From Candidatus Enterovibrio altilux (GTDB lineage Bacteria; Pseudomonadota; Gammaproteobacteria; Enterobacterales; Vibrionaceae): 64,000 nucleotides of DNA. Position 1 is the first letter of the stretch. Each line of letters begins with the position of its first letter. The stretch spans positions 1,302,001 through 1,366,000 of the forward strand of contig NZ_CP020660.1 of assembly GCF_002381345.1 (NCBI RefSeq). Reading direction: 5' to 3'. Positions 9,683 to 64,000 of the stretch are shown piece after piece. The position numbers and the translations under genes were made by a program. The notes beneath the pieces are model-generated. The model saw only the letters and a list, made by a program, of their open reading frames with translations. It did no database searches and was not told the DNA's origin.

Positions 9683-10642
9683 GGCCTTATTCCTTAATTC
9701 AAGTTTGGATAACACGTCCCAACATGGTCAACGATTAAAGAATAATTTTTGTTTTAGGCATACCTAGCCCAGTCAGCTTATTTAACGCTTCTATCATGGT
9801 GTAAATTTCGTTAATCTGAGCATTATGTGTTCTTAAGTTCAATGTCTCTCCGCGTAGTGCTTTGGCTCTAAACATTGTTCCTTTTCTTGGGGGATGAGTG
9901 AAACCGCTCATTTAATACAAAGGATGCTGTAATATTGTTTGGTGTTGTAAGCACCAATGACTGATATTCCATTAATTTTTGAAGGTCTGTTTGAGCGAGT
10001 TAGGTAGCACTCACCTTAAGTTATATTTTATGCATTTAACTCAGCAGGAATTATTTCATGCGTATTGATATCTACCACTAAATGTAACTTGCATCAAACT
10101 AGCCGCTTCTTCATAAGGGCCATGCTTTTTTTGCTTGCCATTCGCCTTCACCGTGGACTTTGAGACCAGTAAAATTAATGGCTAAGTCGCTAAATAAACA
10201 GGTCTCGCATTATTACCCTGCTTAGCTTGATTTCATAACTGAATAGCTTCTTCATCAATCCAAAATATTAGTGAGCCATGATTGATTAAAGCTTGCTTAT
10301 ATTGTTCCTGGTGAGTTGTTTTGTAGCTTAGCTTATCCATAGACCTGAATATTTAAGTGATCCTAGCTGTTTAGAGTGTGGATTGAAAATTTAGCTCCCG
10401 GGTTTAGGAAACAAAGCCGGTTACCATAAACGTTTCTTAGCAAAGACAGCCGTGGCTTGAATAAAAATTACTGAGAAGGATATTGAGTCGAAGGGATTAT
10501 ACAACTTAGATTAGCTAAATCTACGCATGATAAAAGCGTCATATAAGCTGATAGAACTAGATATCCCTAACCCTAAAATTATTGTCTAATAGTGAATTAT
10601 GTTTGGGCTGTATTATCTGAACTTAAATTAGGAAACAGAACC
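9683..10642 (-). mobile_element. IS5-family composite element with inverted 3' arm
   Basis: Bases 9683-10418 are a reverse-oriented copy with an internal deletion (near 9880) and a good 5' end (TTTAGGAAACAAAGCC). At 10419 it joins exactly to GGTTACCATAAACG and the last ~225 bases of the element in forward orientation, ending at 10642. Both outer ends are therefore the transposase-3' end, and the terminal arms form an inverted repeat. It starts 19 bases after hemB. Bases 10643-10760, between it and gltD, show nothing I recognise. Confidence 0.88.
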
Positions 10643-12187: not shown

Positions 12188-15100
12188 TTATTGTGCCTGA
12201 ATACGAAGTTCAGCTGCGCTTCGGCTTTGGTGATTGAGTAGAGAGTGAATGTCAGTTGCTTTTGGCTTAATTAGATAGAATCTATTGATCCATTGTGCAA
12301 AATCGGCAAGAATTTCCTGCGCACGGCTGGAACCCGTGAGCTTAAAATGTTGATCAATCATATCACGGAGATATTTTTGATGAGTTGTGAGCTCATTAAG
12401 CGAGAGTATTTCAACCAGTTCAGGATTAACGTGCCCCACAAAATCCCCTGTTTCGTTGAGTACATAGGCAAACCCCCCAGTCATACCGGCACCAAAGTTA
12501 ACACCAGTATGCCCCAAAATTGCCACAACACCGGCTGTCATGTATTCACAAGCATTATCACCTGTGCCTTCAACAACGGTTAATGTGCCAGAGTTACGCA
12601 CCGCAAAACGCTCACCTGCCATACCTGCTGCAAAGAGTTTTCCACCTGTTGCGCCATATAAGCAGGTATTACCAATAATGGTAGATTCATGAGAGTTAAA
12701 AGTGGATCCCACGGGAGGCTTAATGACAATTATACCGCCTGTCATACCTTTACCAACATAGTCATTAGCATCACCTATTAACGTGATATGTACTCCACCT
12801 GCATTCCATACACCCAAAGATTGTCCTGCAGTACCTTGTAGGTGAATATTGAGCGGTGTACTTGCCATACCTTGGTTGCCATATTGTTTAGCAATTTTTC
12901 CTGATAAATTGGCACCAATTGAACGGTCAGTATTTTTTACATTGAGATAAATGCTTGCTGGTTGTCGCTTTTCGATGGAATCAGTAAATGCCCTTAATAA
13001 GGCCTGATTCATCAGGGCCTTATCAAATGGTGGGTTCGGTTCACTGCAATATACGGTTTTATCTATACCTGACGTTGGTCTTACTAGAATACTACTCAAA
13101 TCTAGTTTAAGTTGCTTTGCAGTAAAGCCTTCAGTTACATCCAATAGATCTGTTCTGCCGATAAGGTCTGTTAGCTTTTCTATGCCAAGTTGAGCCATTA
13201 GTTCACGTACTTCTTCGCAAAGACCTTTAAAAAAATTAATTACTTGTTCCGGTAGACCTTTGAAGCACTTTCGACGTAAAATGTCGTTTTGGGTTGCAAC
13301 GCCCGTTGCACAGTTATTCAGGTGGCAAATACGTAGATATTTACAACCTAAAGCCACCATTGGTGCAGTACCAAAGCCAAAACTTTCTGCGCCCAGAATG
13401 CTGCCTTTAATGATGTCTAAACCTGTTTTCAAACCGCCATCCACTTGGAGTCTAATTCTGTGGCGAAGACCATTAGCAACTAAAGCCTGCTGGGTTTCAG
13501 CAAGGCCAAGTTCCCAAGGGCTTCCCGCATACTTTATTGATGTTAGTGGGCTTGCGCCTGTGCCGCCGTCACAACCTGAAATTGTAATGAGGTCTGCATA
13601 GGCTTTTGCTACGCCAACTGCGATTGTACCTACGCCTGACCCTGATGCCAGTTTGACTGAAATCAGAGCTTGCGGATTAACCTGTTTGAGATCAAAAATT
13701 AGCTGTGCTAAATCTTCAATCGAATAGATGTCATGGTGTGGCGGCGGTGAAACCAGTGTTACACCTTGTACTGAATAACGTAAACGTGCGATTTCTGCGG
13801 TAACTTTATGGCCTGGTAACTGACCACCTTCACCCGGTTTTGCACCTTGAGCCACCTTGATCTGCAACACATCAGCATTGGTCAGATAATGGGGTGTTAC
13901 TCCGAACCGACCTGAAGCAATTTGTTTGATACGAGAGTTGCGTTCGGAATTGAATCGGCAAGGATCTTCACTACCTTCACCGGAGTTGGAGTTACCGCCA
14001 AGGCGATTCATTGCTATTGCTAATGCTTGGTGCGCTTCAGGACTCAGTGCGCCAATAGACATGGCTGCAGAATCAAAGCGTTTAAACAACTCACTCGCCG
14101 GTTCAACTTTGTCCAGCTTAATCGGTCTGTCAATGAACTTTAAGCTCATTAAATCACGAAGCATGGAAGCAGGGCGATTATTGACTGTTGCAGCGTATGC
14201 TTTGTAATCCATGACATCGCCGGATTTGACCGCTAACTGTAGGTTATTGACAACGTCTGGGTTGTAGGCATGATATTCGCCGCCATGGATATACTTGAAC
14301 AATCCACCTGGTTCGAGAGGTTTGCGTTTATGCCATGCACTACGCGATAAGTTAACGAGATCTTGCTGGAAGTCATCAAAATCAGCACCCTGAATGCGGC
14401 TAACTACTCCTGTAAAGCATAGATCCACCACATTATTATTTAGGCCAATTGCTTCGAATAGCTGAGAGCAGCGGTATGAAGCGATAGTTGAAACACCCAT
14501 TTTAGACATGATTTTGAACAATCCTTTGTGAATGCCATTGCGAAAATTCAGCAGTGCATCCGCCGTTGGTTTTGCAATGACATTACTTTCAACCATTTTG
14601 CTAATTGATTCATAAGCAAGGTATGGGTAAACTGCAGTTGCACCAAAACCAAGTAAAACGGCAAATTGGTGAGGGTCACGAGCTGATGCGGTTTCAATCA
14701 CGATATTGGTATCACAACGTAAGTTAGCCGTAACCAATCGTTGTTGAACTGCACCTACCGCCATTGCAGCTGGAATAGGCAGTGTATTTTTTGCGATGCT
14801 TCGGTCTGATAGAATAATTAAAATAGTTCCGTCCTGAACAACGTGTTCAACCTGATTGCACATATCAAAAATAGCTTGTTTCAGGTCTGTTTTTTTTGGA
14901 TTGAAATTTATATCAATGATGTTGTTGCGATAGTATGCGTTATCCAATTCAAGTAACTGAACCATATCGGAATACAGTAAGATGGGGCTACTGAAAGCAA
15001 CACGGTGTGCATGATCCTCAGTTTCTGAGAACACGTTCTTTTCACGGCCAATGAAAGTCACCAATGACATCACATGGTTTTCACGTAAAGGATCAATGGG

Positions 15101-16654
15101 AGGATTCGTAACTTGAGCAAACTTTTGGCGGAAATAGTCAGCTATATTACGCGTTTTTGATGATAAAACAGCCATTGGCGTATCGTCACCCATTGAACCC
15201 GTGGCTTCTTGACCAATATCACTCAATACACGTAACACTTGATCAAGTTCTTCGCTAGAAACTCCGAAGAGCTTTTGATAAGTTTGCAGTTTATCATCAT
15301 CAATGCTACGTTGGCTCACTCGCTGGGCGGGAGCTATCTCCTCAAAAGGTATCAAGCGAAAAACATTTTTATCAAGCCATGCTTTGTAGGGGTGACGATT
15401 TTTTAAATCGTGGTCAATGTCGGTAGAGTGCAAAATTTTTCCTTCGAAGGTGTCAATGACAAGCAATTCACCTGGGCCAACACGCCCTTTTTTAGTCACT
15501 TCATCAGGGGCGTAATTCCATATACCAACTTCAGATGCCAAGGTGATTAATTTATCTTTTGTCATAACATAGCGGGCAGGGCGCAAACCATTCCGGTCAA
15601 GGGTACATGCAGCATAGCGCCCGTCTGACATGACGATGCCGGCAGGACCATCCCACGGCTCCATGTGCATCGAGTTGAAATCATAAAAGGCTCGAAGATC
15701 ATCATCCATATCTGGATGATTTTGCCATGCTGGCGGAATTAGCATGCGTATCGCGCGGAATAAATCCATGCCTCCGGCGAGGAATACTTCCAACATGTTA
15801 TCGAGGCTCGAGCTATCAGAGCCGGTCTCATTTACAAAAGGAGAGGCTTCAGAAAGATCAGGTAATAATGGCGATTTAAATTTGTAAGCTCGTGCGCGCG
15901 CCCATTGACGGTTACCTTCTATGGTATTGATTTCGCCATTGTGTGCGAGATAACGGAATGGTTGTGCAAGTTGCCATCTGGGCATGGTATTTGTTGCGAA
16001 CCGTTGGTGAAATAGACAGATAGATGATTCAAGACGAAGATCGGCAAGATCTAAGTAAAATTTTGGAAGATTTGCTGGCATACACAAACCTTTATAGACG
16101 ATCGTACGGGTAGAAAGGCTTGCGACATAAAAGTCTTTATCGTCGTAAAGTATTTTTTCAGCGTGGCGTCGCGCAATATATAAACGGCGTTCTAAATCTC
16201 TAGCTCGCCATCCTGCGGGACCATTTATGAAGACCTGTTCAATGTTTGGTGCTGAGCTTAATGCGATTTTACCTAGTATGTCTAAATTTATTGGTACTTT
16301 ACGCCAACCAACAATAGATAAGGTTTCAGCTTCTATCTCGCGTGTAAACACTTCCTTTGCATGCTGTGCTTTTTTAAGGTTATTGCTTAAAAAAAACATC
16401 CCAACACTGTAGAGCTTACTAAGTGTCCAATGGTTCTCTTTGGCAATAATGCGAAAGAACGTGTCAGGTTTTTGGAGTAATAAACCACAGCCATCACCGG
16501 TTTTACCGTCAGCATTTATTGCGCCGCGGTGAGTCATCCGGGTCAGTGCAAAAATAGCGGTTTGCACAAGCTTGTGGCTTGATTCACCTTTAGTATGAGC
16601 TATGAGACCAAAGCCACAGTTGCTTTTTTCCAGCATTGGATCATACAGCGACAT
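12188..16654 (-). CDS. gltB: Glutamate synthase [NADPH] large subunit
   Basis: The 1488-residue product makes two glutamates from glutamine and 2-oxoglutarate. The class II amidotransferase nucleophile is Cys13 (NCGFGLIAH), so only a 12-residue propeptide would be removed, shorter than the 42 of E. coli. The FMN-binding synthase domain follows in the second half (GGNSNSGEGSEDP, SGCDGGTGASP), then the 3Fe-4S cysteines in CKYLRICHLNNC (about residues 1103-1114) and a C-terminal beta-helix domain. All regions are present and in frame across 4.4 kb, in strong contrast to the decayed spacers nearby. Confidence 0.97.
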   Translation of the reverse strand: MSLYDPMLEKSNCGFGLIAHTKGESSHKLVQTAIFALTRMTHRGAINADGKTGDGCGLLLQKPDTFFRIIAKENHWTLSKLYSVGMFFLSNNLKKAQHAKEVFTREIEAETLSIVGWRKVPINLDILGKIALSSAPNIEQVFINGPAGWRARDLERRLYIARRHAEKILYDDKDFYVASLSTRTIVYKGLCMPANLPKFYLDLADLRLESSICLFHQRFATNTMPRWQLAQPFRYLAHNGEINTIEGNRQWARARAYKFKSPLLPDLSEASPFVNETGSDSSSLDNMLEVFLAGGMDLFRAIRMLIPPAWQNHPDMDDDLRAFYDFNSMHMEPWDGPAGIVMSDGRYAACTLDRNGLRPARYVMTKDKLITLASEVGIWNYAPDEVTKKGRVGPGELLVIDTFEGKILHSTDIDHDLKNRHPYKAWLDKNVFRLIPFEEIAPAQRVSQRSIDDDKLQTYQKLFGVSSEELDQVLRVLSDIGQEATGSMGDDTPMAVLSSKTRNIADYFRQKFAQVTNPPIDPLRENHVMSLVTFIGREKNVFSETEDHAHRVAFSSPILLYSDMVQLLELDNAYYRNNIIDINFNPKKTDLKQAIFDMCNQVEHVVQDGTILIILSDRSIAKNTLPIPAAMAVGAVQQRLVTANLRCDTNIVIETASARDPHQFAVLLGFGATAVYPYLAYESISKMVESNVIAKPTADALLNFRNGIHKGLFKIMSKMGVSTIASYRCSQLFEAIGLNNNVVDLCFTGVVSRIQGADFDDFQQDLVNLSRSAWHKRKPLEPGGLFKYIHGGEYHAYNPDVVNNLQLAVKSGDVMDYKAYAATVNNRPASMLRDLMSLKFIDRPIKLDKVEPASELFKRFDSAAMSIGALSPEAHQALAIAMNRLGGNSNSGEGSEDPCRFNSERNSRIKQIASGRFGVTPHYLTNADVLQIKVAQGAKPGEGGQLPGHKVTAEIARLRYSVQGVTLVSPPPHHDIYSIEDLAQLIFDLKQVNPQALISVKLASGSGVGTIAVGVAKAYADLITISGCDGGTGASPLTSIKYAGSPWELGLAETQQALVANGLRHRIRLQVDGGLKTGLDIIKGSILGAESFGFGTAPMVALGCKYLRICHLNNCATGVATQNDILRRKCFKGLPEQVINFFKGLCEEVRELMAQLGIEKLTDLIGRTDLLDVTEGFTAKQLKLDLSSILVRPTSGIDKTVYCSEPNPPFDKALMNQALLRAFTDSIEKRQPASIYLNVKNTDRSIGANLSGKIAKQYGNQGMASTPLNIHLQGTAGQSLGVWNAGGVHITLIGDANDYVGKGMTGGIIVIKPPVGSTFNSHESTIIGNTCLYGATGGKLFAAGMAGERFAVRNSGTLTVVEGTGDNACEYMTAGVVAILGHTGVNFGAGMTGGFAYVLNETGDFVGHVNPELVEILSLNELTTHQKYLRDMIDQHFKLTGSSRAQEILADFAQWINRFYLIKPKATDIHSLLNHQSRSAAELRIQAQ

Positions 16655-25944: not shown

Positions 25945-27137
25945 GGCTTTGTTCCCTAATTCAAGTTCAGATAGCAAATCCCAGCATGATTACGATTAAA
26001 CAGTCGCTTTTGCTTTAGGTATGCCTAGTCCGGTTAGCGCATTTAACGTTTTTGTCATGGTACAAGTTTGGCTAATCTTAGCATTGTGATCTCTTAAGTT
26101 CCATGTTACTCTTAGTAGTTTTTTGATTCAAAACATTAGTCGTTTTTGATAGGGAGTGTTTATGGTAACCATATCTTGCTTTCCAATGCTGATTAAAACC
26201 GTTCGTTTAATGCGAACGGTTTCGAAATATTGTCTGGTGTCGTGTCGTTAGCACCATCGGTTCATGTTTCATGGATTTTTCAGCGGGTCTGCTTGAGCAA
26301 GTTAAGTAGTACTGCACTGTCAGTTACATTTAGTGCATTTAGCTCAGTAGCAATGATTTCATACGTATTTATATTTACCGCTAAATGTAACTTGTGGCAG
26401 ACTCGCTGTTTCCCATTAGTATCATGTTTTTTTACTTTTTATTCGCCTTCACCGTAGACTTTGAGCTCCGTGGGCTCAATGGCTAAGTGCTGGACGCTTC
26501 CTTTATTCTTCGTCTTGAACGTGACGCTAACCGTTTTGGCGTGCTTGCTAATGCATGAATAGTAAGGGTATGACAATGTTAGTTAAGAAGTTTGAAAAGA
26601 GAATTAATGAATCCTTGCAGACCTTCCAATGGCATTGAAAATACGCATTTAACCATGAGGGCTGTCGTAATGACTAAGTCGTTAAATAAACGAGATCTTT
26701 CATGATGATTCTGCTTAGTTTAATTTCATAGCTGAATGGCTTCTTTATGAATCCAGAATGTTAGTAAGGCTGATTGATTAAAGCTTGATGATACTGCTTC
26801 CAGTTAGTTGTTTTGTGACGAAGATTATTTATAGACCTTAATATTTAAGTAAGCCTAACTGTTTAGAGTGTTGATTGAAAATTTAGTTCCTTGATTTAGG
26901 CAATAAAGCAGGTTGCTATAAACGTTCCCTAGCAGAGACAGCAATGGTTCAAATCAAAAAAATTATTGGGACTGACATTGAGCATAAGGAATCACAAAAC
27001 TTAGATTAGTGAAACCTTCGCCATGGTAAAAGTGTTAAATACGCTGACTGGGCTAGGTATGCCTAACACGTAAACGGTTATTTCATAGTGGATCATGTTG
27101 GAACTTGGTCTCTGAACTCGAATTAGAAAACCAAGCC
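25945..27137 (-). mobile_element. IS5-family composite element with inverted 3' arm
   Basis: It begins with a well-kept outer end (GGCTTTGTTCCCTAATTCAAG) at 25945. The reverse-oriented body has an internal deletion of about 150 bases near 26200 and ends at 26910. At 26911 it joins GGTTGCTATAAACG and the inverted last ~225 bases, ending at 27137. This is the same junction as at 10418/10419. Confidence 0.9.
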
Positions 27138-27383
27138 GTTTGATCGTGAAAATAGTTGTAGTGACTAAATCGCTAAATAAACGAAGTCTCCCACTATTAT
27201 TCGGTTTAGTTTAATTCTATAGCTGTATTGCTTCTTCATCAACTCAGAATGTTAGCGAGTCACGATTGCTTAAAGCTTGATGAGACTGCTGCCGGTTGGT
27301 TATTTTGTAGTGAAGCTGATTCATAGACCTAAATGTTGAGAGCACAGATTAATAATTAAGTTCCCTCATTTAGGAAACAAAGG
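27138..27383 (-). mobile_element. IS5-family 5'-end fragment
   Basis: About 245 bases match the transposase 5' end in reverse, from the GACTAAATCGCTAAATAAACG region to a terminal CATTTAGGAAACAAAGG. The rest of this copy is absent. It abuts the preceding composite element and lies 50 bases beyond the ruvX stop. Confidence 0.8.
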
Positions 27384-28143: not shown

Positions 28144-29179
28144 GGGACTTTATCTCCTAACTTGAGTTCAGATAGTAAATTTTAACATGATTCATCATTA
28201 GAGAATTGCTTTTATTTTAGACATGCCTAGCTTTGTCAGCGTATTTAATGTTTTTATCATGGCGTATTTTTCGCTAATCTGACCATTGTGATCTCTTAAG
28301 CTCAATGTTCCTCCAAGGAGTTTTTTTGACTCGAACCATTGTCGTCTCTGATAGGGAATATTTATGGTGGCTATACTTCATCTTTTAATTTTTATTTGAA
28401 CCGTATAATTTCTGGCAACTGACAGCTAAATTACGTGAATAACCTCGTTTTCAAAATGTTGCTTCTTTTCTTGGTGGGATGAGTGAAATCACTCGCTTAA
28501 TACAAACAGTTGCGTAACATTATTTGGTGCCGTAAGCGCCATTGGCTGATATTTCATTGGTTTTTCAACGGGTCTGTTTGAGCAAGTTAGGTAGCATTAC
28601 ACTGTCAGTCACATTTGATGCATTTAGCTTAGCAGTAATGATTTCATGCGTATTTATATTTACGGCTGAATATCACTTATGCCCGATTCACTGTTTCCCA
28701 TCAGTGTTATGCTTTTTTACTTTTTATTCCCCTTCATCGTAAACTTTGAGCCTTATAGAATTCATGGCCAAGAGCTGAATGGCTTCTTTATCAGTCCAGA
28801 ATGTTAGTAAGTTACGATTGATTAAAGCTTGATTACACTGCTTCCAGTTAGTTGTTTTGCAGTTAAACTTGTTCATAAACCTGAATATTTAAGTGCTTCT
28901 AGCTATTAAAAGTCTCGATTAAAAATTTAGTTTCATGATTTTAAAAACAAAGCCGGTTACCATAAATGATCTTTACCAAAAATGGCAATGTTTTTAGTCA
29001 AAACATTACTCCGAGGAGCGTTGAATTTAAGGAATTCTAATGCTTAAATTGAATAAATTTACGCAATGATAAAAATATTAAAGAAGCTGACAGGGCTAGA
29101 TGTGCCTAAAATGAAGGCGATCGTTTAATAGTTACTCATGTAAAGATTTGCTATCTGAATTCAAATAGGAAACGAAGCC
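28144..29179 (-). mobile_element. IS5-family composite element with inverted 3' arm
   Basis: The outer end at 28144 is GGACTTTATCTCCTAACTTG. The reverse body runs to 28954 with a deletion of about 200 bases near 28780. AAAGCC at 28949-28954 is joined to GGTTACCATAAATG at 28955, and the inverted arm ends at 29179 (AGGAAACGAAGCC). The junction AAAGCC-GGTTACC is the ancestral-looking one. Confidence 0.9.
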
Positions 29180-36010: not shown

Positions 36011-36355
36011 GGCTTTCTTTCCTAAACTAGGTAACTAACTTATTAATTTATGCTCCAAACAGCTAGGTTTACTTAAATATTCAGGTTCATGGACAAGCTT
36101 CGCTAGCAAACAACAACTGGAAGTCGTATAATTAAACTTTAATTAATCGTGATTTACTAATACTCTGGATGGATGCAGAAGCCATTCAGTTATGCAGTTA
36201 AATTAAGCCGAATAATCGTGGGGGCCCCGCTTATTTAACGACTTAGCCATTACGATTGCTCTCATGGTTAAACGCGTATTTTCAATGCTATTAATAAGTT
36301 AGCTAAAATTCATTAATTTTATTTTCAAATTTGCCCCCCACTGTCGTTATCATGT
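36011..36355 (+). mobile_element. IS5-family 5'-end fragment, forward
   Basis: About 345 bases from a left end GGCTTTCTTTCCTAAACTAGG match the transposase 5' third in forward orientation. The copy stops abruptly where the next, reverse composite element starts at 36356. It lies upstream of dapA, and about 78 bases separate it from the dapA ATG, so the dapA promoter must be in that short interval or within the IS. Confidence 0.85.
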
Positions 36356-37634
36356 GGCTTTGTTTTTTAATTTGGGTTCAGAATAGCAATTCTCTACATG
36401 ATTAATGATTAAACAATCGCTTTTGTTTTAAGGATAACTAGCTCGGTCAGCTTGTTTAACGCTTTTATTATGGCTATGGCATAAGTTTCGCCAATCTGAG
36501 CATTGTGATCTCTTAATCTCAATGGTTTCTTCAAGTAGTTTTTAGCTCGATCCATTGCTGTCTCTGACAGGCAACGTTTATGGTAAGCATGCCTCGTTTT
36601 CAGTGCTTATTTGAACCGTATAATTTCTGGTAATTGACAGTTAAATTATGCGGATGATTTCGTTTTAAAAAGTTGCTCCTGTTCTTGGTGAGATGAGTGG
36701 CATTGCTTATTTGATACGAGCGGTTGCGCAACATTAGCTGGTGTCGCAAGCGCCCTTGGCTAATATTGTAATGATTTTGCGGTGGGTCTGTTTGAGCAAG
36801 TGAGATAGCACTTCACCGTTAGTCACATTTGATGTACTTAACTAAACAGCAATGATTTTATGTGTACTGATACCTACCGTTAAATGTAACTTGCTCCAGA
36901 CTCTCTATTTTTCATCAGTACCATGCTTTTTTAATGACGATTCGCATTCATCATAGACTTTTAGCCCCGTATAACTAATGGCTCAGTGCGGGAGGGTTCT
37001 TTTATTCTTCGTTTTGAACGTGACATTAACCGTTTTGGATCACTTGAAAATGCATGAATAGTGAGGGTATGACAATGGCAGTTGAATACATTTGAAAACA
37101 TAATTCATGAATTCTTGCAGACCCTCAATGGCATTGAAAACACGCATTTAACCATGAGGGCCGTCGTAATGGTTAAGTGGCTAAATAAACGAGGTTTCTT
37201 ATCATTATCCTGCTTAGTTTCATTCCATAGCAGAATAACTGCTTCATCAATCCATAATGTTAGTGAGTCAGCATTGATTAAAGTTTGATTATACTGCTTT
37301 TAGTTAGTTTTTTTGTAGCGCAGCTTGTGCATAGACCTGAATATTTAAGTGAGACTAGGTGTGCAGAATGTGGATTAAAAATTCAGTTCCCTGATTTAGG
37401 AATAAGGCAGGTTACTATAAACATTCCCTATAAGAGATGGCAATCTTTTGAATCAAAAAAACTCCTTAGAGGGGCATTGAACTTAAGGGATAACAATGCT
37501 TAGATTAGCGGAATCCTCCGCAATGACACAAGCGTTAATCAGTTGACAGAGTTAGGTATGCCTCAAGCGGGCGCAATCGTTTAATCGTTAGTCATGTTGG
37601 GATTTGCTATCTGAACTAAAATTAGGAAACAAAA
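36356..37634 (-). mobile_element. IS5-family composite element, most complete example
   Basis: The outer end GGCTTTGTTTTTTAATTTGGG begins at 36356. The reverse body runs without large deletions to 37409, where it joins GGTTACTATAAACATTCC at 37410; the inverted arm ends at 37634 (AGGAAACAAAAC). Reading the right arm in reverse complement reproduces the left arm from the terminal repeat through TAACGATTAAAC to the TTTATAGTAACC boundary, about 225 bases. The arms have drifted independently. Bases 37635-37759, before murA, hold nothing recognisable. Confidence 0.92.
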
Positions 37635-37759
37635 CAGTGGTTTTAAAGAAGAAACGGAATACCAGACGAAAATAACAATCAATAACTCACTAATTTTTAA
37701 ATGAATAGCCTTAATGTAGAGATGGCTCTCCCGAAGTAATATACATTAAATTAAAAGTA

Positions 37760-50416: not shown

Positions 50417-51686
50417 AGCTTCGTTTTCTGATTTGAGTGCAGATAGCAAGTTCCAACATGATTCATTGTTAGGTAATCGCTTTCGTGTTAGGCATATTTA
50501 GTCTTGTCAGTTTCTTTAATGCTTTTATCATTGTGTAGGCTTCTATAATCTGAGCATTGCGATCCCTTAGGCTCAATGTATCTCCGTGTGGTTTTTTGAC
50601 TCGAAACATTGTTGTTCCTGATAGACAACGTTTATGGTAACCATGCCTCGTTTTTTAATGTTTATTGAAACCGTATCATTTTTGATAACTTATCGCTAAA
50701 TTGCGCGAATGATCTCGTTTCCAAAAAGTTGCTCCTTTTCTTGATGGTCTGAGTGGAACTATTCATTTAATACGAATTATTTTGTAACATTGTCTGGTGT
50801 CGTAAGCACCATCGGTTGATATTTCCTTGACTTTAGGCTGGTCTGTTTCAGTAAGTTAGGTAGCACTGCGCCGTCAGTCACATTTGATGCACTTAACTTA
50901 GCAGCAATAATCTCATGCGTATTTATATCTACCGCTAAATGTAATTTGCGCCAGACTCGCCGTTTTCAATCAGTACCATGCTTTTTTATTTTTCATGTCC
51001 CTTCATTGTAAACTTTGAGTCCCATAGCATCAATGGCTAAGTGCTGGGTGCGTCCTTTATTCTTCGTCTTGAACGTGACGTTAACGATTTTGACTCGTTT
51101 GCTAATGCATGAAATAGTGAGGCATGACAATGACAGTTGGGCAAATTTGGAAATAGAATTAATTAATCCTTGCACACCTCTCCATGGGATTGAGAATACG
51201 CATTTAACCATGAAGGCCATCGTGATGGTTAAGTTGCGAAATAAACGAAATCTCTCATGATGATCCTGCTTAATTTAATTTCATAGCTGAATCGCTTCTT
51301 CATTAATCCATAATGCTAGTGAACCATGATTGATTACAACTTGATTATGCTTCTTTCAGTAGTTGTTTTGCAGCGAAGATTGTTCATAGGCTGAATATTT
51401 AAGTGGGCCTAACTGTTAGAATCTTGATTGAAAATTTAGTTCCCTTATTTAAAAATACAACCGATTATAATAAACGTTCCTTAGCAGAGACAGCAATGAT
51501 TGAGTCAAAAAATTACTTGGAGGGAAATGGAACATAAGGGAGCACATAACTCAGATTAGTTAAACCGACGCCATGATAAAAGCATTAAATCAGCTGACAG
51601 AGCTAAGTATACTGAAGATGCAAACAATTGTCTAATAGCGAATTATATTGAATTTACTATCTGAATGCGAGTTAGGAAACACAGTC
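50417..51686 (-). mobile_element. IS5-family composite element with inverted 3' arm
   Basis: It begins at about 50417 (GCTTCGTTTTCTGATTTGAG), directly after the ptsO remnant. The reverse body runs nearly full length to about 51462 (AAAAATACAACC). There the sequence GATTATAATAAACGTTCC starts the inverted arm, ending at 51686. The junction matches the other composites after point changes. Bases 51687-51919 upstream of mgtE are unique AT-rich sequence with no clear promoter or riboswitch. Confidence 0.9.
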
Positions 51687-53290: not shown

Positions 53291-54475
53291 AGATTTTATT
53301 TCTTAATTCTAGTTTAGATAACCAGTCTCAACGTGGCAGCTATGAGACGATAGCTTCCATTTTAGGCATATTTAACACTGTCAGCTTATTTAATGCTTTT
53401 ATCATTATGTAGGCTTCGCTGACCTAAACATCGTAATTCCTTAAGCTAAATGTGTTTTCTAGTAGTTTTTCGACTCGAACCATGGCCGTATCTAATAGGT
53501 GATTCAATTATCTATTTACGCTCTAAACAACTAGGTTCACTTAAATATTCAGGTCTATGGACAAGCTTCATTACAAAATAATTAACTGGAAGCAGTATAA
53601 TAAAGATTTAATTAATAGTGGCTCATTAATATTATTGATTAATGAACAAGCTATTCGCTATGGAATCAAACTAGGTAGAGTAATCGTGAAAGACTTTCGT
53701 GTATTGAATGACTTAGACATTACAATGGCTTTTATGGTCAAACGAGTATTTTCAATGTTGTTGAAAATTTTGCAAGGATTCATTGATTCTGTTCACCAAC
53801 CTGCTTAATAGCTATTGCTAGTCACATTTGATGCACTGAACTCAGCAGTAATGATTTCATGCGTATTTATGTCTACCGCTAAATGTAACTTACATCAAAC
53901 TCGCTGCTTCCTATCAGTGCCATACTTTTGTGCTTGCTGTTTGTGTTCACTGTAAATATTAAATCCTGTAAAATCAATGATTAAGAGATAAATAATTTTT
54001 TTATTTTTTGTTTTAAATGTGACGTTAACTGCTTAGCTCGCTTGTGAATGCATGAGATAGTGAGAAGATGACAATGGTAATTGAGCAAGTTTGCAAACAA
54101 AAGGAATCCTTGCAAACCTCTTAATGGCATTGAAAATACGCATTTAACCATGAGGCTCGTCATCATAGCTAAGTTACGAAGTAAACGAAGTCTTCCATGA
54201 TTATTTTGCTCAGCTTGATTCCATAGCTATATAGCTTCTTTATTAATCTAAAATATTAGTGAACCACCATTGGTTAAAGCTTGATTATATTGCATTCAAT
54301 TAGTTGTTTTGTAGCGAAGCTTGTTCATAGACCTGAATATTTAAGTGAGTCTAGCTGTTTAGAATGTTGAAAAATTTAATAAGTCTGGAAGACTAATCAT
54401 GCTTAAAATGAAGTAACCGTCTAATAATGAATCATGTTGAGATTTACTATCTGAAATTTAATTAGGCAACAAAGC
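53291..54475. mobile_element. IS5-family mosaic of at least two copies
   Basis: The order of pieces is: an outer end with about 200 bases of transposase 3' end in reverse (53291-53493); the transposase 5' third forward (about 53500-53818); the middle and 5' end in reverse (about 53819-54380); and the outer end forward (about 54383-54475). Both outermost ends are thus the transposase-3' end, as in composites, but the interior holds two opposed copies. Bases 54476-54679, before purC, hold nothing recognisable. Confidence 0.8.
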
Positions 54476-63717: not shown

Positions 63718-64000
63718 GGCTTTGTTTCTTAATTCGAGTTCGAATAGCAAAGTCCTAGATGATTAACTATTAGACAATCGTTTTCGTATTAAGCATACCT
63801 AGTGATGTCTGCTTATTTAACGCTTTTATTATTGTGTAGGTTTCGTTAATCTGAGTTGTATGATCCCTTAGGTTCAATCTCCCTCCCCGTCATTTTTTGA
63901 CTTGAATCATTGCTGTCTCTGTTAGGTAATGCTTATGGTAATCGATTTTATTTTTTGAATCAGGGAACTAAATTTTCAATCAACATTCTAAATCATTAAG
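63718..64000 (+). mobile_element. IS5-family composite element, mirrored, running off the window
   Basis: An outer end GGCTTTGTTTCTTAATTCGAG begins at 63718, and the ~225-base arm in reverse runs to about 63943 (GGTAATC). There it joins a forward copy that starts GATTTTATTTTTTGAATCAG and continues past the window edge. This is the same composite junction in mirror orientation. Confidence 0.88.

Follow-up and report, generated by a model that had tools for sequence, protein, structure and literature searches.

A composite transposon consists of two insertion sequence (IS) copies around cargo, and foldback elements carry long inverted arms, built of short repeats, around a unique centre. MITEs, repeats that descend from an IS, may be moved by a transposase acting in trans (PMC10969869). 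According to excerpts of its genome account, Ca. Enterovibrio luxaltus CC26, the symbiont of the anglerfish Cryptopsaras couesii, holds 672 IS5-family transposase genes, the published count of complete ones being zero; all of its transposases are described as truncated or lacking inverted repeats, and its IS history as expansion followed by decay (PMC6020299). These excerpts make no mention of a composite form, and we recognised no described equivalent in the literature, judged by titles and the openings of abstracts.

The element described here recurs in the window, the whole 64,000-nucleotide stretch of DNA that was analysed, and in further stretches of the same genome. Of the 80 loci kept for comparison, those of Enterovibrio and Photobacterium are closest to the sigma-54 gene of the window. 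The element resembles each of the known architectures in part. Like MITEs it is an IS-derived repeat; however, it is larger than its parent and keeps the transposase gene region, present in 66 tip-to-tip composites although gapped in some, whereas MITEs are short and have no transposase gene. With composite transposons it shares the outward tips of two copies, in inverted order, as the bounds of a moving unit, but one partner is a 227-bp fragment, the content is the IS itself rather than unrelated cargo, and one tip is buried. Its long inverted arms recall foldback elements; in five window units they measure 224-227 bp, with 70-75% identity over the aligned part. They are, however, a duplicated plain IS 3' end instead of short repeats, and nothing in them points to a folding mechanism.

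The parent is an IS5-family, IS903-like insertion sequence of ~1051 bp, related to ISVa2. A 222-aa piece of its consensus is a DDE transposase (NF033579, E 2e-85; also PF13737 and PF01609), and tips like GGCTTTGTT, in inverted order, are present in the window units and in relatives. The IS903-like relatives of ISVa2 (Vibrio) share the NF033579 transposase and the tips GGCTTTGTTTCC with the composite and include simple elements of ~1051 bp, but none of 30 loci of relatives, about 12 of them close enough for a full profile match, carries the extra reversed 3' arm. Nine of the 15 plasmid matches listed are annotated as ISVa2 family, and identity to the consensus piece ranges from 81 to 87% across the 15. 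Plasmid records matching the composite unit number 140, none across 80% of it; no plasmid match crosses the junction, the two records that did match doing so only from the junction onward. A protein search found transposase relatives in 11 of 18 genomes of the genus, and in the sister symbiont genome no such arms were seen at four loci inspected, out of at least 150 matches. Among the own-genome transposase matches listed, all contain stops except one partial match (residues 52-222), so that the open transposase gene of the IS5 family is absent from these present-day copies.

Results

The first-pass annotation of the window had reported six loci at which an IS copy is joined at one fixed point to its own reversed end. 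All six junctions are present, at 10418/10419, 26910/26911, 28954/28955, 37409/37410, 51462/51463 and, mirrored, at 63943; a pattern search allowing up to three mismatches recovers three of the six, against a chance expectation of 0, and misses the others because they are more decayed. In consensus the junction reads AAAGCC followed by GGTTACC, flush with the last base of the 5' tip. We refer to the element's own 3' end as the A arm, to the extra reversed 3' end as the D arm, and to the 5' tip as the C tip. The reversed arm opens with GGTTACCATAAACG, corresponding by eye in the alignment to codons G-Y-H-K-R in the C-terminal part of the transposase.

The five complete window units share one plan: a 3' tip, the body, the 5' tip, and then 224-227 bp of the 3' end in reverse. 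Their lengths are 960, 1193, 1034, 1281 and 1270 bp. Unit 1 has a decayed body at 9683..10418 (+ strand, transposase encoded on the minus strand), with its 3' (A) tip at 9683 and its 5' (C) tip at 10418, and two internal losses (model 195-308 and 627-808); its D arm, the final ~224 bp of the element reversed and beginning with GGTTACCATAAACG, occupies 10419..10642 (-). The body of unit 2 (25945..26910, +) is followed by a D arm at 26911..27137 (-), whose outer tip adjoins a fragment of another copy (27137-27382), and that of unit 3 (28146..28954, +) by a D arm at 28955..29179 (-). Units 4 and 5 are near full length, with bodies at 36356..37409 and 50417..51462 (both +) and D arms at 37410..37636 and 51463..51686 (both -); beside unit 4 lies the 5' part of another copy (36012..36354, -, model 1050 to 708), the remainder of which is absent. 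Unit 6 is mirrored, its D arm at 63718..63943 (+) adjoining the 5' tip of a body (63944..64000, -) that is cut by the window end and runs beyond it. The two arms of a unit have ceased to be identical: the best arm alignments within the five units reach 70-75% across 132-233 columns. A related mirrored arrangement at 53291-54471 is without a demonstrable fixed junction, and the window also holds eight tip-to-tip elements without a D arm, one of them mostly deleted.

To place these loci in the genome (2,143,356 bases in four contigs, one of 1,604,691), we examined 864 kb, comprising the window and 40 stretches of 20 kb. Sample 1 (the window and stretches L111-L130, 464 kb) served to build the profile iteratively; sample 2 (L181-L200, 400 kb) was held out, with no role in profile building, and provides the unbiased figure, because the window in which the finding was made sits in sample 1. 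Contig 4 is absent from both samples. In sample 1 the profile hits chain into 237 elements; a 5' end is present in 125 of these, and 47 of the 125 carry the fixed junction (46 and 45 at earlier profile stages). The corresponding figures for sample 2 are 210, 113 and 44. The composite is no rarity: the junction is found at 91 of 238 sampled 5' ends (~38%), which extrapolates to ~225 in the whole genome. These 91 have partners ending at model 205-245; a stricter rule gives 88 at 215-247 and four at 207-209. Where a 5' tip meets another copy elsewhere, the positions are scattered and none is seen more than about four times. Profile hits sum to ~27% of sample 1 and ~29% of sample 2, overlaps included. 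Elements spanning the profile from tip to tip number 78 (35 composite) in sample 1 and 67 (31 composite) in sample 2; these 145 sit oddly beside the statement on missing inverted repeats or truncation in the excerpted genome account (PMC6020299).

Copies of the junction carry shared alleles on both of its sides. In sample 1 composite and other 5' ends differ at model sites 1010, 1013, 1020 and 1045 (p 1e-6 to 3e-18), and D and A arms at 140, 141, 190, 197, 205 and others. The diagnostic sites replicate in the held-out sample 2, 149 and 170 weakly (p 0.01 and 0.002). On the 5' side, 1013 T occurs in 36/43 composite against 10/65 other ends (p 9e-13) and 1045 T in 38/44 against 21/60 (p 1e-7); on the D side, 205 C occurs in 34/44 D against 8/65 A arms (p 5e-12) and 140 T in 24/44 against 4/65 (p 2e-8). 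None of nine related simple elements has 1010T, 1045T, 71G, 139T, 140T, 141G, 190C or 205C, although 71G and 139T are fairly frequent in A arms too; 1020A (two of the nine) and 197T do occur among them and are not clearly derived.

The first-pass annotation had asked whether the junction copies form a single group, and most of the checks that it proposed were carried out within the 864 kb examined. On trees, D arms separate from other 3' arms, requiring 17 changes against 39.9 when labels are shuffled (0/300 shuffles), as do composite from simple 5' ends (18 against 40.4, 0/300; 15 in another draw). The separation is slighter for body positions 301-900 (25 against 30.3, 4/300), and composite and simple A arms are indistinguishable (26 against 27.2, 113/300). 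These trees were drawn from random subsets: 50 of 84 D arms, 40 of 60 and 40 of 75 A arms, 60 of 79 and 60 of 112 5' ends, and 45 of 61 and 45 of 74 bodies. The mean allele distance between the two forms peaks at 0.105 in the 50 bases leading up to the junction, with 0.087 in bin 751-800, 0.080 in 951-1000 and 0.05-0.07 elsewhere (shuffled means were ~0.05 in the two bins tried), a gradient that would fit recombination with simple copies over the remaining element. These comparisons of alleles and trees demonstrate, on sequence grounds, that most copies of the junction share common ancestry.

Whether that ancestry goes back to one founder is a narrower question. The junction could have arisen two or more times, with each founder amplified as a unit: no D allele is fixed, six of them standing at ~41-77% of D arms, and some D arms are A-like. 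In sample 1, six of 45 D arms hold at most one of the six D alleles and two of 34 composite A arms hold three or more, patterns that could reflect arm-to-arm exchange or a separate origin of some few units. However, the clustering is joint on both sides of the junction, and decay of 15-20% per copy together with exchange between neighbouring arms can explain the spread of alleles, such that several founders appear improbable, if the most credible of the alternatives. The comparison of arm divergence, likewise proposed in the first-pass annotation, gave 0.304 within units and 0.304 between them (permutation p 0.40, 34 units); the arms thus diverged before amplification and were not homogenised, and this test gave no signal of conversion.

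A fixed junction might also be produced by repeated nested insertion, were simple copies drawn time and again to the palindromic TATGGTTACCATA within other copies, the other half of the target being lost each time. The site is a 13-bp palindrome, and 3' tips do recur at certain positions within other copies (model 651/652, four times; 706-708, four; 792-794, five; 883/884, three; 938, three). One-sided contact is also common, 42 of 142 complete elements touching another copy on one side and six on both. Simple copies inserting at the junction site should, however, bring their 3' tips against it as well. The expected counterpart, a 3' tip abutting ...ATGGTTACC at position ~228, is absent: of the 55 places where a 3' tip (an A tip in 40, a D tip in 15) meets another copy, none lies in the range 215-247, against 88 of 112 5'-tip junctions in that range. 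The left flank resembles the D start slightly more than shuffled flanks do at 10 bp (173 matches against 160, p 0.04), but not at 9 bp (p 0.70), the length that the family duplicates, and copies share alleles, partly derived ones, on both sides of the junction. The absent counterpart and the common alleles led us to discard hotspot insertion, a very unlikely cause of the fixed junction. As to the excess of one-sided contacts, PMC11708052 describes adjacent deletions as common with IS903 and reports IS movements with large deletions that lacked duplications; such deletions could explain it. The recurrent 3'-tip positions are possibly preferred targets or further small families. At two distant loci (L122 3972-5430 and L181 2894-4181) the same junction pair is seen, with the 3' tip at 793/794 and the 5' tip at 156/157 of the target; this may be another nested unit, less common than the first, that moved in one piece.

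In stretch L195 (14375-16536) a complete composite (14752-16008) splits a third copy of which both halves are retained, at 14375-14751 (model 651-1045) and 16014-16536 (model 3-655). Its flanks are placed as a 9-bp duplication would have them; each agrees with the target consensus at 6/9 positions and with the other flank at 5/9. A second composite lies within a third copy at L182 15198-17330, with ~124 bp of the target lost. A candidate for the founding nested insertion, L114 6194-8223, was rejected, as its target half stops ~34 bases before the junction site; it appears to be a composite beside or inside another copy whose other half was lost. Recombination or segmental duplication, rather than transposition, is the least probable source of the many junction copies: recombination among copies is likely here and the differences between the forms are strongest beside the junction, yet by eye none is shared among the outer flanks listed for 35 complete sample 1 composites, crossing-over moves a junction without multiplying it, and the composite inside a third copy retains both target halves.

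Target duplications were dropped as the main test of unit movement, being mostly lost and their signal too weak. Five lengths were tried on three sets with p uncorrected, and with so many comparisons none of the following values is strong: at 9 bp the outer tips of composites gave 160 matches against 143 expected (p 0.04), with three pairs at 6/9 or better against 1.2 (p 0.13), and simple copies 201 against 188 (p 0.13), with five such pairs against 1.5 (p 0.018). By eye, 9-bp duplications flank 14 of 19 copies of more distant relatives and none of nine single intact copies of closer ones (L131-L136, L139, L141 and L161).

Composite bodies lie closer to their own consensus than other bodies do (mean divergence 15.4%, n=78, against 17.7%, n=97; p 3e-7), a difference that holds in each sample apart (p 3e-4). 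The four best-scoring own-genome protein matches (L140, L211, L214 and L217) all have the reversed 3' arm at their 5' end. Both observations fit a later spread of the composite, though part of the gap could stem from more mixed origins among the simple copies. Separately, internal deletions with near-identical ends (463/551 and 627/808) recur in both forms, e.g. at window positions 9870-10187 / 10176-10417. We rejected these as proof of descent, since 627/808 is bounded in the consensus by 11-bp direct repeats, AATGGCTAAGT, and neither form is free of it. At site 239, just before the duplicated segment, the two samples together have T in 114 copies, C in 43 and A in 24, and T would turn a tryptophan codon into a stop; it is the commonest base in both forms and exceeds the usual decay (median 23%), with alignment made uncertain by an adjoining run of T. 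The source may have included copies both with and without a truncated transposase.

Discussion

These data are best explained by a ~1.28-kb composite that arose from an IS903-like founder, was amplified by transposition and then decayed, a reading to which we assign a probability of roughly 0.87. Most likely, a single founder composite was mobilised whole, a little later than the simple copies were. The first-pass annotation had held that the composite itself moved, and this is supported by the absence of the counterpart junction (0/55), the alleles, several of them derived, on both sides and the composite inside a third copy. Its further suggestion, that intact copies drove the movement in trans, is possible and not implied, because the unit includes a full transposase gene region.

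In the proposed origin, the 5' tip of a ~1051-bp IS would have been joined flush to position ~228 of another copy's 3' part, in the opposite orientation, probably by the transposase itself through strand transfer, with the neighbour's other half being lost. The product, of ~1.28 kb, would comprise a 3' tip, the transposase gene, the buried 5' tip, 227 bp of reversed 3' end and a second 3' tip. As its two outer tips are of the same kind and in inverted order, a transposase could mobilise the whole unit, the two outward 3' tips presumably acting as its active ends. The driving transposase may have come from the unit itself or from simple copies; the two are indistinguishable, because the body consensus is much alike in both forms and T is commonest at site 239 in each. 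Amplification by transposition would have carried the founder to ~38% of the sampled 5' ends, slightly after the simple form, and all sampled copies would have decayed afterwards. The common C-to-T change at 1045 may have helped to silence the buried tip, albeit that T also occurs in 21/60 other ends of sample 2. In a bolder reading, with the odds somewhat against it, the IS would have gained a new outer end from a reversed piece of a sibling, the shared change at 1045 (C to T) would have weakened its buried end, and the resulting element, bounded by two right ends, would have done most of the moving during the symbiont's last wave of expansion.

As the composites caution, inverted pairs of an IS that always meet at one point are not necessarily the product of separate nesting events. 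Among the 672 IS5 transposases counted there are two or more structural subfamilies, which differ slightly in age, and the fixed junction with its alleles provides a marker within an IS expansion that ranks among the largest reported in bacteria. In the light-producing host of this family, a bacterium of deep-sea anglerfish, the composite copies are now decayed relics. They form a fossil record of how a new element architecture arose and spread, in which an IS was enlarged by duplicating one of its own ends.
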